The translations under genes and the position numbers were made by a program. From positions 1-43,172 of the forward strand of contig PFBL01000024.1 in assembly GCA_002773355.1 (NCBI GenBank): 43,172 bases of DNA, given 5' to 3'. Below the pieces are notes generated by a model that saw nothing but the letters and a program-made list of their open reading frames with translations, was not told the origin of the DNA and searched no databases. How positions within the stretch are numbered: the first letter of the stretch is position 1; each line of letters opens with the position of its first letter. Source of the DNA: Candidatus Kaiserbacteria bacterium CG10_big_fil_rev_8_21_14_0_10_56_12. GTDB lineage: Bacteria > Patescibacteriota > Minisyncoccia > Phycocordibacterales > Phycocordibacteraceae. Of this stretch, positions 16,575 to 41,514 are shown piece after piece.

Positions 16575-16891
16575 AGCGGGGTAGAGGAGAGGTACCTCGG
16601 GAGGCTCATGTGAAGAATGTGACCCTATCCGGCAACGGGTAGCGGAAAAACTCTCTAACGTGCTGGAACACCGTGAGAGCTTCTTGTGCTACAGCGTGAT
16701 CCGAAAGGATGGGCGCGAATGCTTGAAAAACAAGAAGATTCGGCAATCAGCAGCCAAGTCTCGGTATGCCCGGGAAAGGTTCAGAGACTATAATGGGAGA
16801 GTCCCTAAGGGATTGTGGTATAGTCCATTCCTGCTAGAAACAGTAGGTGTAAAAGAACCTCCAGACGCCGGTTCGATTCCGGCCCCCGCAA
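16575..16891 (+). tRNA. Initiator tRNA-fMet(CAU), interrupted by a group I intron
   Basis: The exons (16575-16609 and 16856-16891) join to a normal initiator tRNA. The acceptor AGCGGGG faces CCCCGCA, leaving the first pair (A1, A72) unpaired, an initiator feature. The D arm is GAGG-AGAGGTA-CCTC. The anticodon stem GGAGG/CCTCC closes the loop CTCATAA with anticodon CAT. The T arm is GCCGG-TTCGATT-CCGGC and the discriminator is A. CCA is not encoded. The intron sits directly after the anticodon, between U36 and A37. Confidence 0.9.
16610..16855 (+). ncRNA. Group I self-splicing intron (246 nt) in tRNA-fMet
   Basis: The 5' exon ends in U and the intron ends in G (omega-G), as group I splicing requires. 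The P7 strands GACTA (16786-16790) and TAGTC (16821-16825) lie within near-consensus R and S elements (TTCAGAGACTAT and TATAGTCC). P1 can form between exon TCAT and intron GTGA (within 16610-16625), giving the conserved U-G pair at the splice site. A GAAA-capped hairpin near 16830-16847 fits P9. No homing endonuclease is encoded inside. Confidence 0.9.
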
Positions 16892-26467: not shown

Positions 26468-28839
26468 ATGCCTCACGGCCTTTCCTCAGCAGAGGCCAAA
26501 CGACTGCTCGCGCAGTATGGCCCGAATGAAATAGCAGAGAAGAAACAAAGCGTCATTGTGCGCTTCGTCCGCGCGTTTGCCTCGCCCGCGTCAGTGATGT
26601 TGATTGCGGCGTCGGCTATCTCGTATGACATCGGCCGGCAATTCGATGGATCATTCATCCCCGCTCTGCTCCTCTTGAACGTAGGGATGAGTCTGTGGCA
26701 CGGACACAAGGCAGAGAGTGCCTTGCGCGCGCTCCGTGCACAGCTCTCGGTGACAGCACGTGCGTTGCGTGATGGCGTGTGGGCGACGGTGCCGGCGCGC
26801 GAGCTCGTGGTCGGCGACGTGATTCGCTGTGGGGTTGGAGTGCTCGTACCAGCGGACGTGCGGATCGACACGGCGGTGAACCTCAGCCTGAACGAGGCGG
26901 TACTCACCGGAGAGTCTCTCCACAAAGCAAAAAAGGAGGGGGACACGGCCTACTCTGGATCGGCCGTCGCGACCGGAGAGTGCACTGGGACGGTCACTGC
27001 GACCGGTAACCAAGCATTCTTTGGCAAGATCGCAAGTGCTGGCGCAGGGAAGAAGCGCACATCCTCGATGGAGAAGGACATTCTCTCGATTTCGCGGTTT
27101 CTTATTATCGCCAGTCTGGTCGCGGTGGCGCTACTCAGTGCAGTATTTCTTTCGAGCGGGCAACCACTCGCGGACGTCGCGATTCTTGACCTCTCGCTAC
27201 TTATTGCCGGGATTCCCGTGTCGCTTCCGACAGTCATGACACTCATCGTGTCGATTGGCGCCCTCGCGGTCGCGGCGAAGAAGGCGCTCGTGCGGCGCCT
27301 CTCGGCACTTGAAGACTTTGCCAACGTGACGCTCCTTCTTACCGACAAGACGGGCACCCTGACCGAGAACAAGATCTCGGTCGAACGGGGGCGCATGCGT
27401 ACGTGCCGTATACAGAGCAAGAGCTACGACGCTATGCGGCGACGGCGGCGAGCGCAAACGACGGGAGCGCCATCGATCGAGCCATCACCTCCGCGGCCGG
27501 CGATGCTCCTCTACAGCCGGAGATCATACGAGACACCATCCCCGCCGATTCGGTGCGCAAACACGGATCAACGCTTCTCTCAGAGGGAGACGATACATTG
27601 CTCGTCTCGTTTGGTACGCCGCCAGTGATCATGTCGTTTTGTCACGGCCTCGATGCTATCGAGGCCGCCGTACATCGTGACATCGACAGGGCTGCACAAG
27701 ACTGTTCGCGCGTGATTGCTGTTGCAGTAAAGCGGGGCGCGACCGCCGTCTCTGATGAAACCGAGATGACCTTCGCCGGACTGTTAGTACTCGCAGATCC
27801 CCTGCGAAGCGATGCAAAAGAAACACTGCAGTACCTTGAGCGCGAAGGAGTACACCCGGTGATGGTAACCGGAGACACGAAGGAGACGGCGGCACACGTA
27901 TCGAAGACGCTCGGGCTCGAGGGATCAGTGGTGTGCCCCAAGGATGTCGCCGTGGCGTCGCTCCCGAGCGACGCGTTCGCTCAGACCGCGGCCTTCGCCG
28001 AGGTGTTACCAGAGGACAAGCTCGCGCTCGTGACGCGAGCAGAGGCGCAGTACGTTGTCGCGGTTACGGGCGATGGCGTGAACGATCTCCCAGCGGTCCG
28101 TAAGGCCGATGTAGGGATTGCGGTTGCCAATGCGGTCGATGCGCTCAAGGACGTTGCGGACATTGTTCTGCTTGATAGCGGCATCGGGGTGATGCAAACA
28201 GCGCTCGTCGAGGCGCGCAAAATTTTCTTTCGTCTCTACAACTACTCGGTCTACCGAATCTCCGAGAGCTTCCGTCTCATTGTAACGGCGCTCGTGCTCG
28301 GCATTGTTATCAAAGGATTCCCGCTTACGCCGGTGGAAATCATTTTGCTCGCGTTCTTGAATGATATCCCTATTATTACGCTCGCGTTCGATAAGGTGAA
28401 GCGGGTCGATCGGCCCGCAGACCTGCGCCCACGCACACGCTTTGAGCTCGGGACACTCTTTGGCCTCGTGGGCGTCGCGAACAGCTTGGGGCTCTACTTC
28501 CTTCTTGCGAACGGTCTCCATCTGACTCTCCCGCTGATTCAAACGGCTTTCTTCCTTAAGCTTACGGTCTCTGGGCACATGCTTATCTACGTCGCCCACA
28601 CGCAGGAGCGCTGGTGGCGCTATCTGCCCGCACGGAGCGTCATCATCGCCACGACCGTCACCCAACTTATCGCGACCGGCCTCGCGGTGGGTGGCGTGTT
28701 CGTCTCGGCAATCCCGCTCTCTTTGGCCGCATTTGTCTGGGTGTGGGCATTCCTCTGGATGCAGGTTACTGAAGCCGGGAAGGGTGCGCATCGACAGATA
28801 TTCGAGCGTGGGCAAGCGCTGGCGTCCCACGCAATGTAA
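26468..28839 (+). pseudogene. P3A-type proton-pump P-type ATPase, frameshifted
   Basis: Two overlapping frames encode one P-type ATPase of about 790 residues. The first half (26468 to about 27390) has LLAQYGPNEIAEKK, TGESLHK, the helix-4 motif IAGIPVSLPTVMTL and the phosphorylation site DKTGTLTENK. The second half continues as AHAYVPYTEQELRRYA, then TGDGVNDLPAVRKADVG and helix 6 LNDIPIITLAFD. These are traits of plasma-membrane H+-ATPases (P3A). The frames join at a run of five Gs (27387-27391); one more G would restore the frame. It may be a sequencing error, a real mutation, or slippage. Confidence 0.85.
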
Positions 28840-38345: not shown

Positions 38346-39086
38346 ATGCATGAGACGCGTCTCATCATGGGAATGCCCATTGAGGTGCAGGTGGTTAATG
38401 GGCCGCCCGACGCGCACGAGGCCGTCTTTGCCCACCTCACGCGCGTTGACGAACGCTTCAGCACCTACAAGGACGACAGCGAGATATCAGCGCTTAATCG
38501 TGCCGACATTACTCACGACGGCACGAGTGATGAGATGAAGGAGATCTTTGAGATAGGAGCGCAGACCAAGCGAGAGACCGATGGCTATTTTGACATGCGG
38601 CGGCACGATGGGCTCATCGACCCCTCCGGGGTGGTGAAGGGGTGGGCTATACACAACGCGGCCGCGCTTCTCGCGTAACGAGGTTGCGAGGACTACTTCA
38701 TTAATGCCGGGGGTGACATTGCGATGTGCGGGAGGAACGCCGGCGGCACAGAGTGGTCGGTGGGCATCCGGAACCCCTTTAACCCCGAGGAAATCGTGAA
38801 GGTTATACATCCTCGTGGCAAGGGAGTCGCGACCTCGGGGCCGTATCTTCGTGGCGACCATATATATAATCCGCACGATTCAGGCCGCGCGATCGAGGAC
38901 ATTGTGAGCCTTACGGTCATTGGCCCCAACGCCCTCGAGGCGGACCGGTTCGCCACGGCGGCGTTTGCGATGGGGAAGGAGGGGATATGGTTCATCGAGA
39001 AGCTGACAGGCTTCGAAGGGTACACGATCGACAAGGACGGCATGGCTACCATGACAAGCGAGTTTGCGGCGTATACACGGGCGTAG
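38346..39086 (+). pseudogene. apbE: ApbE-family FAD:protein FMN transferase, interrupted by in-frame TAA
   Basis: The frame encodes about 245 residues of ApbE in two parts split by one TAA (38676-38678), with no change of frame. Part one has HETRLIMGMPIEVQV, ERFSTYKDDSEISALN and the DPSGVVKGWAI motif. Part two continues RGCEDYFINAGGDIA, where the FAD- and metal-binding GGD lies, then TSGPYLRGDHIYNP and the C-terminal region. ApbE moves FMN from FAD onto a Thr of FMN-binding proteins, here the gene just upstream. The stop replaces a helix residue between LLA and RGC, where other ApbE proteins have a polar residue. Confidence 0.85.
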
Positions 39087-39128: not shown

Positions 39129-39202
39129 GCCGGCGTAGCTCAGTTAGTTAGAGCGTGGGATTCATAAACCCAAGGTCCCAGGTGCAACTCCTGGCGTCGG
39201 CA
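39129..39202 (+). tRNA. tRNA-Met(CAU), elongator type
   Basis: The acceptor GCCGGCG pairs with CGTCGGC (one G-U), the anticodon loop is TTCATAA with anticodon CAT, and the discriminator is A; no CCA is encoded. Two oddities: the anticodon stem has an A31-A39 mismatch, and the T loop reads TGCAACT, with G where the almost invariant U55 should be. A CAU tRNA could also be tRNA-Ile read by lysidine, but the overall sequence favours elongator Met. Confidence 0.85.
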
Positions 39203-39258
39203 CAAACACGGAGTGCGAGACAGTGTGGACATTACGGGGTTATAGTAATGTCCTGTCA

Positions 39259-39264
39259 TATACT
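39259..39264 (+). promoter_or_regulatory. -10 box (TATACT) for the homing endonuclease gene
   Basis: TATACT ends 6 nt before the ATG at 39271, which marks this ATG as the start in preference to an upstream in-frame GTG/ATG at 39223. Confidence 0.6.
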
Positions 39265-39270
39265 GTAAGG

Positions 39271-39960
39271 ATGCCGGTCCCCAAGCGACTCAATCAGCAA
39301 TTCTTCAGCACGTGGTCACCGTCGATGGTATATGTACTTGGGTACTTCGCCGCGGACGGTTCTATGATTTTAAATAAGCGCGTGGCGCGTTTTATTGAAT
39401 TTACGAGTATTGACCGCGACTTGCTAGAACGTGTCAGTCACGTGGTTGGCTCAAACCACAAAATCCAGATACGAAAAAAACGGCGAGAAGCATGGAATAC
39501 GCAATATCGACTCCAAATCGGCAGCAAAGCTTGGTTTGAAGATCTGTCGCGCCTTGGGTTTACGCAAGGCAAAAGCACATCGCTCATGTTACCTAATATT
39601 CCGAAGAAACACATCCCAGACTTCGTCCGGGGATACTTTGATGGTGATGGTTGCGTGTATTTCAACAAAGAGCTTCATTTCGCTAGCCGTAAGAAACCCA
39701 GGGCTATACTGTCGACGCTTTTCACAAGCGGATCAAAACCTTTCCTCGAGTCTCTGTGGAAGCAGCTTAAGGACCATGATGTTTTGGGAGGTTCGCTGCA
39801 GAAAAAGCAGCGTGGTTTTGAGCCTCGCTTCAGTCATAAAGACAGTGTTGCACTTCATCGCATGATGTATCATACTGACCAAGCCTCGGAATTGTCCTTG
39901 CCACGGAAACGACTGAAGCTCACGATGGCAATCCGAGATTTAGAAAAGATGCGGGAGTAA
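39271..39960 (+). CDS. LAGLIDADG homing endonuclease, free-standing between two tRNA genes
   Basis: A protein of about 229 residues with both LAGLIDADG helices: VYVLGYFAADGSM (catalytic Asp near residue 30 of the 39271 start) and DFVRGYFDGDGCV (about 126-138). It is therefore a single-chain, double-motif enzyme that should cut a 14-22 bp DNA target. It is basic (many Lys/Arg) and has more A+T than its neighbours, which fits recent arrival. It is not inside an intron: tRNA-Met ends 68 bp upstream and the intron-bearing tRNA-Asp starts 8 bp downstream. It has its own -10 box. Confidence 0.93.
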   Translation: MPVPKRLNQQFFSTWSPSMVYVLGYFAADGSMILNKRVARFIEFTSIDRDLLERVSHVVGSNHKIQIRKKRREAWNTQYRLQIGSKAWFEDLSRLGFTQGKSTSLMLPNIPKKHIPDFVRGYFDGDGCVYFNKELHFASRKKPRAILSTLFTSGSKPFLESLWKQLKDHDVLGGSLQKKQRGFEPRFSHKDSVALHRMMYHTDQASELSLPRKRLKLTMAIRDLEKMRE

Positions 39961-39968
39961 GTAATCTA

Positions 39969-40255
39969 GCGGGAGTAGCTCAATTTGGTTAGAGCGCCGC
40001 CCTGTAGACGTGCAGCTTTCTCGAGAAATTGGGATTGAAACTTCCTGGGATATCGGTGAAGGCTAAGTTCGCATGATGTGAATACGCGAACACCGAGGGA
40101 ACCCCTCAGGAGATTGCTTGAGGGGGCACCGTAGAGACTAGATACCGGGACCCTAAGGGTTCTCAAACCTATGGTGAAGATATAGTCCACGCCTCTATGA
40201 AAATAGTGGATCAAGTGCACGGCGGAGGTTGCGGGTTCAAGTCCCGTCTCTCGCG
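39969..40255 (+). tRNA. tRNA-Asp(GUC), anticodon interrupted by a group I intron
   Basis: Exons 39969-40005 and 40218-40255 join to GCGGGAG...CTCTCGC with discriminator G, a tRNA-Asp identity element. The anticodon stem CCGCC/GGCGG closes the loop CTGT+CAC, so the anticodon GTC appears only after splicing: G34 and U35 are in the 5' exon and C36 is in the 3' exon. The variable loop is short, which rules out Tyr, Ser and Leu. The T arm is GCGGG-TTCAAGT-CCCGT. CCA is not encoded. Confidence 0.88.
40006..40217 (+). ncRNA. Group I self-splicing intron (212 nt) in tRNA-Asp
   Basis: The 5' exon ends in U and the intron ends in G. P1 forms between exon CTGT and intron GCAG (within 40010-40016), giving the conserved U-G pair at the splice site. 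P7 strands are GACTA (40136-40140) and TAGTC (40183-40187), inside near-consensus R (GTAGAGACTAGA) and S (AAGATATAGTCC) elements. A GAAA-capped hairpin near 40192-40209 fits P9. It has no inner ORF of its own; the endonuclease gene is just upstream of the tRNA. Confidence 0.92.
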
Positions 40256-40264
40256 CAACTGGAG

Positions 40265-40283
40265 AAGCCCTTCGGGGCTTTTT
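40265..40283 (+). terminator. Intrinsic terminator after tRNA-Asp
   Basis: AAGCCC-TTCG-GGGCTT followed by a short T-run (40279-40283), 9 bp after the tRNA end. Confidence 0.85.
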
Positions 40284-40299
40284 CCATTTGTGCGGAGAA

Positions 40300-40518: not shown

Positions 40519-41514
40519 ATGTCTCAGGTATTCTACGACCTCTCTTCGCTCCGGCCGCTAGTGCGCAGCCTACAGCCGTCTCAGACATGTCTCGTAACTT
40601 CGCAGACACTTAACACAACACTTGCAGGAGAGATAAAGAAGATCCCTCACATCTCTCTCGTTGTCGTGCCTGATGGAGAGAGGGCCAAGGAGTGGGGTCA
40701 GATCGAGAAACTGCTCCAGCAGTTTATCAAAGTTAAGTTAGATAAGGGGAGTGTGGTTATTGCGCTTGGGGGAGGAACGGTCGGTGACCCGGTGGGGTTC
40801 GCGGCATCCATGTATTTGCGAGGTGTTCGCTACATCCACATACCCACAACGCTTCTCGCGTAGGCTGATAGCGCACACGGGGGCAAGACGGGGATCAACT
40901 TCGGAGGGTATAAGAATCAAGTGTGGACCACTTATCCTGCTGTGGCCACTATCATAGAGCCGCGCTTTTTGGCATCTCTCTCCAGAGAGCAGATCATTGA
41001 TGGTCTAGGAGAAATCATCAAGTTGGGTCTGGTAAAAGACCGCTCTATTCTCACGCTTTTGAAAAAAGTGCACGTGGACACCCTGGTCGCGAGCACACAG
41101 TTGTTGCCCCTACTAAAGAAAGCCATTGCCGCTAAAGCATTTTATGTAAAGGCCGATCCAAGTGAGGTCGGTCTTCGCAAGATACTGAACGCTGGGCATA
41201 CGATTGGCCACGCGCTCGAGCTCAAATACAAAATCCCGCATGGGCGAGCGGTGCTCATCGGGCTTCGCAAGGAGCTATCAGTGTGCGAGGAACTTGGCCT
41301 CACGCCCCCGGCCGTACGAGCGCAGTATGAGGCACTTCTGCACAGTCTCGGCATCCACCTCGAAGACAATCTCGCTATAGACTGGCAGAGCGTCTTGCAC
41401 GACAAAAAAGTCGCTGGGGACCACATCGTACTCCCTGTCATTAAAAAACCAGGGGAGGCAAAACTCGTCTCGATCAAGCTGGCGAGCCTTAAGCACCACC
41501 TCGTTACGTCCTAA
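40519..41514 (+). pseudogene. aroB: 3-dehydroquinate synthase family protein, interrupted by in-frame TAG
   Basis: One frame of 332 codons encodes an AroB-family protein with a single TAG at 40861-40863. Before it: [35 protein letters not shown] (NAD site) and HIPTTLLA. After it: ADSAHGGKTGIN, GLGEIIKLG (metal-binding Glu), NAGHTIGHALE and PHGRAVLIGL (metal-binding His). The stop stands exactly where AroB has Gln in the TTLLAQ-D motif, so one C-to-T change (CAG to TAG) explains it. AroB makes dehydroquinate in the shikimate pathway; no other shikimate gene is in the window. A GTG at 40921 could restart only a C-terminal fragment. Confidence 0.85.

Follow-up and report, generated by a model that had tools for sequence, protein, structure and literature searches.

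A free-standing LAGLIDADG endonuclease gene abutting an intron-bearing tRNA-Asp in Candidatus Kaiserbacteria, with a predicted target that spans the intron insertion site

In this work we have analysed contig PFBL01000024.1 of Candidatus Kaiserbacteria bacterium CG10_big_fil_rev_8_21_14_0_10_56_12 over its 43,172 nucleotides (the window, contig C16 of a 632 kb genome that is 97% complete), and in it a gene for a LAGLIDADG homing endonuclease that stands between a tRNA-Met gene and a tRNA-Asp gene interrupted by a group I intron. All three genes lie on the same strand (Table 1). The TAA stop codon of the endonuclease gene (39958-39960) is separated by 8 bp from the start of tRNA-Asp at 39969, and the intron starts 46 bp beyond the final base of that codon, the gene lying outside any intron. 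These coordinates bear out the layout given in the initial annotation, including the 8-bp distance (39960 versus 39969) and a -10 box of the gene's own, the -10-like TATACT. The position of this box suggests a leaderless transcript of the endonuclease gene; an alternative in-frame GTG is found at 39223, upstream of the ATG. The 9-bp repeat GCGGGAGTA was found by direct reading and is absent from the list of the direct-repeat tool.

Table 1. Features of the tRNA-Met, endonuclease and tRNA-Asp locus in window coordinates.
Feature	Position	Strand	Source or remark
tRNA-Met (CAU), elongator type, upstream neighbour	39129-39203	+	ARAGORN, Rfam
Leader element GGTTATAGTAATGTCCTGTCATA, matching the inferred target GGTTAG-N8-CCTGTCACG at 12/15 fixed positions; putative operator	39238-39260	+	
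-10-like TATACT, 6 bp ahead of the ATG	39259-39264	+	overlaps leader element
LAGLIDADG homing endonuclease gene, two-motif (LAGLIDADG_3), 229 aa from ATG, TAA stop	39271-39960	+	Pfam
GCGGGAGTA, 9-bp copy of the tRNA-Asp 5' end within the last codons of the endonuclease gene	39951-39959	+	exact string at 39951 and 39969
tRNA-Asp(GUC), whole interrupted gene	39969-40255/6	+	ARAGORN intron mode
tRNA-Asp(GUC) 5' exon	39969-40005	+	ARAGORN intron mode, direct reading
Inferred target, first 19 bp (GGTTAG-N8-CCTGT)	39987-40005	+	interruption read directly
Group I intron, 212 nt, ORF-less	40006-40217	+	Rfam RF00028; boundaries read directly
tRNA-Asp 3' exon	40218-40255	+	ARAGORN intron mode, direct reading
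Inferred target, last 4 bp (CACG), beyond the intron	40218-40221	+	site inferred
Terminator-like hairpin 3' of tRNA-Asp	40259-40285	+	consensus match only

The endonuclease matches Pfam LAGLIDADG_3 in two stretches (E = 6e-14). The acidic residues of both LAGLIDADG motifs do not change among relatives, D29, D124 and D126 (numbered from the ATG at 39271) being invariant in two alignments, one of 20 relatives and one of 34. Its AlphaFold model has a mean pLDDT of 94, and the best PDB matches of the model are LAGLIDADG enzymes (I-Tsp061I, E = 5e-10), with I-AniI and the bI3 maturase among the fold matches. No match was obtained when the sequence was compared with the PDB by phmmer, or in a single-sequence scan of the collection. 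As judged from its sequence and predicted fold, with two helices carrying acidic residues, the protein is a LAGLIDADG homing endonuclease. Its closest named relative is from Candidatus Kaiserbacteria, and the named relatives are mostly Patescibacteria.

The intron matches RF00028 with 52 bits, contains no open reading frame (ORF), and interrupts tRNA-Asp between anticodon positions 35 and 36 (CUGU-intron-CAC). The exon CUGU forms P1 with the intron GCAG, with a U.G pair at the 5' splice site, and the intron ends in G. Since P1 does not include the D-loop, a consensus D-loop is not obviously required for splicing. No intronless tRNA-Asp was found in the host genome, where the interrupted gene appears to be the sole copy, and splicing is therefore probably needed. 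Homologous introns are present in the tRNA-Asp genes of relatives. Two Patescibacteria loci, L158 (Peregrinibacteria) and L164, carry at the same 35/36 position an insertion unlike the common intron, ending in ATAG/CAC (here and below a slash marks the insertion point).

This arrangement recurs widely. We compared 80 named relatives from across Paceibacteria, with some from other Patescibacteria, and in 77 of them a tRNA-Asp is annotated directly 3' of the gene; in one of the remaining three (L153) the tRNA-Asp was missed by ARAGORN and read directly, and the other two reach the contig end. The gene overlaps tRNA-Asp in 61/80, the commonest overlap being 10 nt, with the stop codon formed by the U8-A9-G10 (TAG) of the tRNA itself, and tRNA-Met is the upstream same-strand neighbour in 56/80. 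More distant relatives in sister clades are likewise found directly ahead of tRNA-Leu, tRNA-Cys and tRNA-Phe genes, and throughout this large Patescibacteria family the 3' end of the gene abuts or overlaps the 5' end of a tRNA. In the taxonomic family of the host, 43 of 106 genomes encode a relative of the endonuclease, 19 of these being Asp-type, and most of the genomes without the Asp-type gene have a short Met-Asp spacer; no tRNA-Asp was recognised in 14 family genomes, some of them nearly complete. Presence is patchy within one genus, and apparent decayed remnants of the gene are seen at L196, L233 and L261. As read from these sequences, this is a free-standing gene with patchy presence at one site and signs of both gain and loss.

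The intron is associated with the gene. The initial annotation had asked for their co-presence in related genomes, which we examined in the family and in a class-wide sample of 384 genomes (34 Asp-type carriers and 350 others). In the family, all six genomes in which the tRNA-Asp intron was seen are carriers. The class-wide sample contains 12 intron-bearing genomes, namely 10/34 carriers versus 2/350 others (P = 4e-10); one of the two exceptions (G417, L261) has the apparent endonuclease remnant in its spacer. The gene without the intron is nonetheless common, since about two thirds of the carriers have no tRNA-Asp intron. Introns in tRNA-fMet, tRNA-Thr, tRNA-Asn, tRNA-Ser and other tRNA genes have no such endonuclease as neighbour. 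It had been suggested that the layout captures an early step in the formation of a mobile intron. We rejected this: the layout is widespread and mostly intronless, and the intron has been gained or lost repeatedly, with 19 changes of state on a tree of 76 endonucleases, at least 12 of them on well-supported branches. The other suggestion, that the intron was too short to hold an ORF, is not supported either, the layout occurring widely where there is no intron at all.

A clue to the target of the enzyme lies in the leader of its own gene. In about 36 of 75 Asp-type leaders, TGGTTAG-N8-CCTGTCACG or a closely similar sequence (up to 15/15 positions) occupies a constant position upstream of the start codon, and in 34/36 of these relatives a -10-like box lies 3' of the element. 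The element equals the stretch of tRNA-Asp from the D-loop to the anticodon loop, with identical spacing, and the intron site falls within it (CCTGT/CACG). At L142, L156, L161 and L169 the leader is canonical where the tRNA-Asp of the same genome is altered; the altered forms include GGTTAA, CGGTAG and an extra base, and the leader often still has the consensus. The Leu-type and Cys-type genes show the same relation to their own tRNAs. In the 23 Leu-type leaders found by pattern, the anticodon of the leader is that of the adjacent tRNA-Leu in every case (GAG 16, TAG 5, CAG 2; permutation P = 2e-7), a loose match at L413 having been judged spurious. Cys-type leaders carry the tRNA-Cys site inverted, as TTGCAG-N9-TTACCACTT, with the same N9 spacing. 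Leaders and tRNAs were matched by spaced patterns, an earlier 24-mer similarity scan having proved too weak. This comparison strongly argues that the putative target of the Asp-type enzyme, about 23 bp of tRNA-Asp, spans the intron insertion site.

Carriers are poor in the uninterrupted site. Among 96 carrier loci, the consensus site is present in 25/33 intron-bearing and 5/63 intronless tRNA-Asp genes (Fisher 1.5e-11), a comparison slightly inflated by a few genomes counted twice via two collections; the site is altered in the other 58/63 intronless genes. On the endonuclease tree, where each genome is counted once, about 9 of 12 phylogenetically independent pairs favour the relation, 0 oppose it and 3 are tied (median P = 0.004). 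An intact site was found in 57/74 gene-free genomes of the family versus 0/12 intronless carriers, and in the class sample an intact uninterrupted site was found in 0/34 carriers versus 114/350 others (P = 6e-10, stratified by family; P = 1.4e-6 when the carriers are restricted to the 24 intronless ones). The corresponding prediction for tRNA-Cys, set down before the search, also held: 0/18 Cys-type carriers had an intact site versus 99/366 others (P = 0.005), and in the four Cys-type carriers that matched the pattern the match was the leader itself. The genomes are mostly metagenome assemblies, and ancestry is handled in part, by the stratification and by one protein tree. We had considered tRNA-Asp a non-target, given the many intronless carriers, and dropped this idea when the tRNAs of these carriers were seen to lack the consensus.

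We propose that the free-standing endonuclease recognises about 23 bp of uninterrupted tRNA-Asp, from the D-loop to the anticodon loop, and would cut this gene in chromosomes that do not carry the element. Repair from an element-bearing chromosome would then copy the endonuclease gene together with the abutting tRNA-Asp, in which only 37 bp separate the gene start from the intron site. The tRNA-Asp so acquired would not be a target: its site would be split by a group I intron, as in the window, or altered in the D-loop or anticodon loop, and the intron is very likely one of these two alternatives for inactivating the site. In the promoter, the copy of the target may be bound by the enzyme as an operator, limiting the enzyme's own expression. 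Binding, cutting, homing and autoregulation are what we infer from sequence comparison, and to the proposal as a whole, with homing on tRNA-Asp, shielding by intron or sequence change and autoregulation through the leader, we give a probability of about 0.72. The data suggest that the endonuclease cuts the intronless tRNA-Asp of other genomes, and the earlier idea that gene and intron travel together in this way gains comparative support, as the intron is nearly confined to carriers, the predicted target spans its site and carriers have no intact site in the class sample; what has to be amended is the role of the intron, which would be only one of two shields. A wider reading, to which we would give even odds, is that a family of tRNA-specialised endonucleases (Asp, Cys, Leu-GAG, Leu-UAG, Leu-CAG and Phe) drives the replacement of essential tRNA genes by protected ones, with the promoter copy of the target as a self-limiting switch and introns as shields.

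Several observations weigh against this proposal. The leader element is present in only about 36 of the 75 Asp-type leaders, and other subclades (e.g. Moranbacteria), where the target may differ, do not have it; the leader of the window itself matches at 12/15 positions only. LAGLIDADG enzymes cut at the centre of their sites, but the intron is off-centre, 4 bp from one end of the predicted site. An intact consensus is found in five intronless carriers (L123, L137, L143, L159 and L165), eight intron-bearing carriers do not have the consensus, and the tRNA-Cys site is intact in L024, a Cys-type carrier that is not part of the class sample. Altered tRNA-Asp genes also occur in the gene-free family genomes G008, G010 and G064, so part of the association may come from shared ancestry, and some of the genomes used to test the Asp consensus had also served to define it.

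Could the target instead be the junction between spacer and tRNA 5' end, destroyed by the insertion, with the intron hitchhiking by co-conversion? Such plain intronless homing would fit an insertion that is always at the tRNA 5' end, carriers that are mostly intronless, and the finding that some carriers and gene-free relatives have identical mature tRNA-Asp (G069 and G010, G086 and G027). It does not account for the copy of the D-loop to anticodon segment in the leader, the agreement of Leu anticodons between leader and tRNA, the inversion of the Cys site or the alteration of the carrier site precisely where it is not split by an intron; moreover, in the gene-free relatives examined, no common sequence that might be a conserved half-site is visible in the spacers upstream. 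We regard this explanation as unlikely. Somewhat less likely still is that the leader element is the leftover 5' half of a tRNA once invaded by an element that supplied the replacement half, its conservation then reflecting origin and not binding. A few leaders do retain more of the tRNA 5' half (L400 and L419 for Leu, L160 for Asp). Against this, the Asp-type leaders keep only the 23-bp segment, with no copies of the acceptor and D-stem, and the centre of the element is replaced by AT-rich sequence with a -10-like box following in 34/36. The Cys-type copy is inverted, which favours a binding site over a leftover, and on these inverted copies we dropped the leftover half as the sole origin of the leader.

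The two other explanations concern the association and the protein. Lineages with a variant tRNA-Asp might simply happen to carry the gene, with no causal link, as the variant tRNAs of some gene-free genomes would allow; the signal holds within families, on independent pairs and in the advance prediction for tRNA-Cys, and we judge mere shared ancestry improbable. LAGLIDADG proteins are known to include group I intron maturases, and a domesticated, non-mobile protein of this kind, a maturase or a tRNA-related regulator aiding the folding of the tRNA or intron, would agree with the stable neighbourhood, the ORFs kept intact over a broad range and the presence of the bI3 maturase and I-AniI among the fold matches. 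Most carriers have no intron to help, though, the gene is patchy within one genus and leaves apparent remnants, and the acidic active-site residues are kept; domestication is the least probable of the four, and very improbable.

Homing on tRNA-Asp as proposed here resembles the collaborative, or trans, homing in which one site serves both a free-standing enzyme and an intron without an ORF, as described in phages for F-CphI with the cyanophage psbA intron and for T4 MobE with the nrdB intron and a defunct I-TevIII (PMC3984707, PMC2988022). As in those cases, the inferred site spans the intron insertion site. Cleavage has been shown for the phage enzymes and is predicted for that of the tRNA-Asp system, which differs in being found in cellular genomes, in tRNA genes instead of phage protein genes, with a LAGLIDADG enzyme and many natural replicates, and in having sequence change as an alternative to the intron as well as leader copies. 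The system very likely works like collaborative homing and is a candidate member, a refined and recurrent form of it in cellular genomes. T4 SegB is also a free-standing endonuclease in a tRNA cluster (PMC2988022, Table 1). It stands between tRNA genes and targets that region, as we predict here; SegB belongs to the GIY-YIG family, is a phage enzyme, and has a tRNA intergenic target and no intron. To our knowledge, SegB has no copy of its target in its own promoter. A precedent for a homing endonuclease repressing its own transcription is I-TevI, which binds an operator (PMC2988022), although this is a GIY-YIG enzyme encoded inside an intron, and autoregulation in our system is a prediction.

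In the same bacterial radiation (CPR), rRNA introns encode LAGLIDADG endonucleases such as I-ShaI, some of them of the LAGLIDADG_3 type (PMC11270868). These share the fold with the window enzyme, but they lie inside rRNA insertion sequences and are mostly single-domain, whereas the window enzyme is two-motif, tRNA-associated and encoded outside the intron. Some tRNAs of CPR genomes contain group I introns (PMC8172020). Full-text searches of open papers, a scope that leaves out most subscription journals, gave no description of the tRNA-linked endonuclease family.

Collaborative homing, a proposed route to mobile introns, had rested on few phage examples, and many cellular replicates are now available, with a short and explicit predicted target that makes the idea directly testable. 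An ORF-less intron may have an evolutionary use in guarding a tRNA gene from a neighbouring selfish nuclease, and the proposal could account for the variation seen in tRNA D-loops, which are otherwise conserved. The family would also provide a set of natural LAGLIDADG enzymes with targets that vary according to tRNA and anticodon. If true, the reading of a specialised family would explain the spread and persistence of introns in the tRNA genes of these bacteria.

Other features of this genome were seen in passing. A second group I intron in the window (16580-16890) interrupts the initiator tRNA-fMet directly after the anticodon (CAU/AA); this intron is also present in the tRNA-fMet of relatives, where no LAGLIDADG gene of the tRNA-linked family lies next to it. 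A third, weaker group I intron match (41.7 bits) lies elsewhere in the same genome (L003, G000:C17:11435-11712). In the window, the ApbE and AroB frames are each broken by an in-frame stop (38670-38678 and 40855-40863) in the same context, CTTCTCGCGTA[AG], at a position where glutamine (CAA/CAG) is expected. Sequencing error at the motif, real decay and recoding are all candidate causes, and CTCGCGCAG is intact five times elsewhere in the window. Finally, a P-type ATPase gene at 26468-28839 is present as two overlapping frames, an apparent frameshift.
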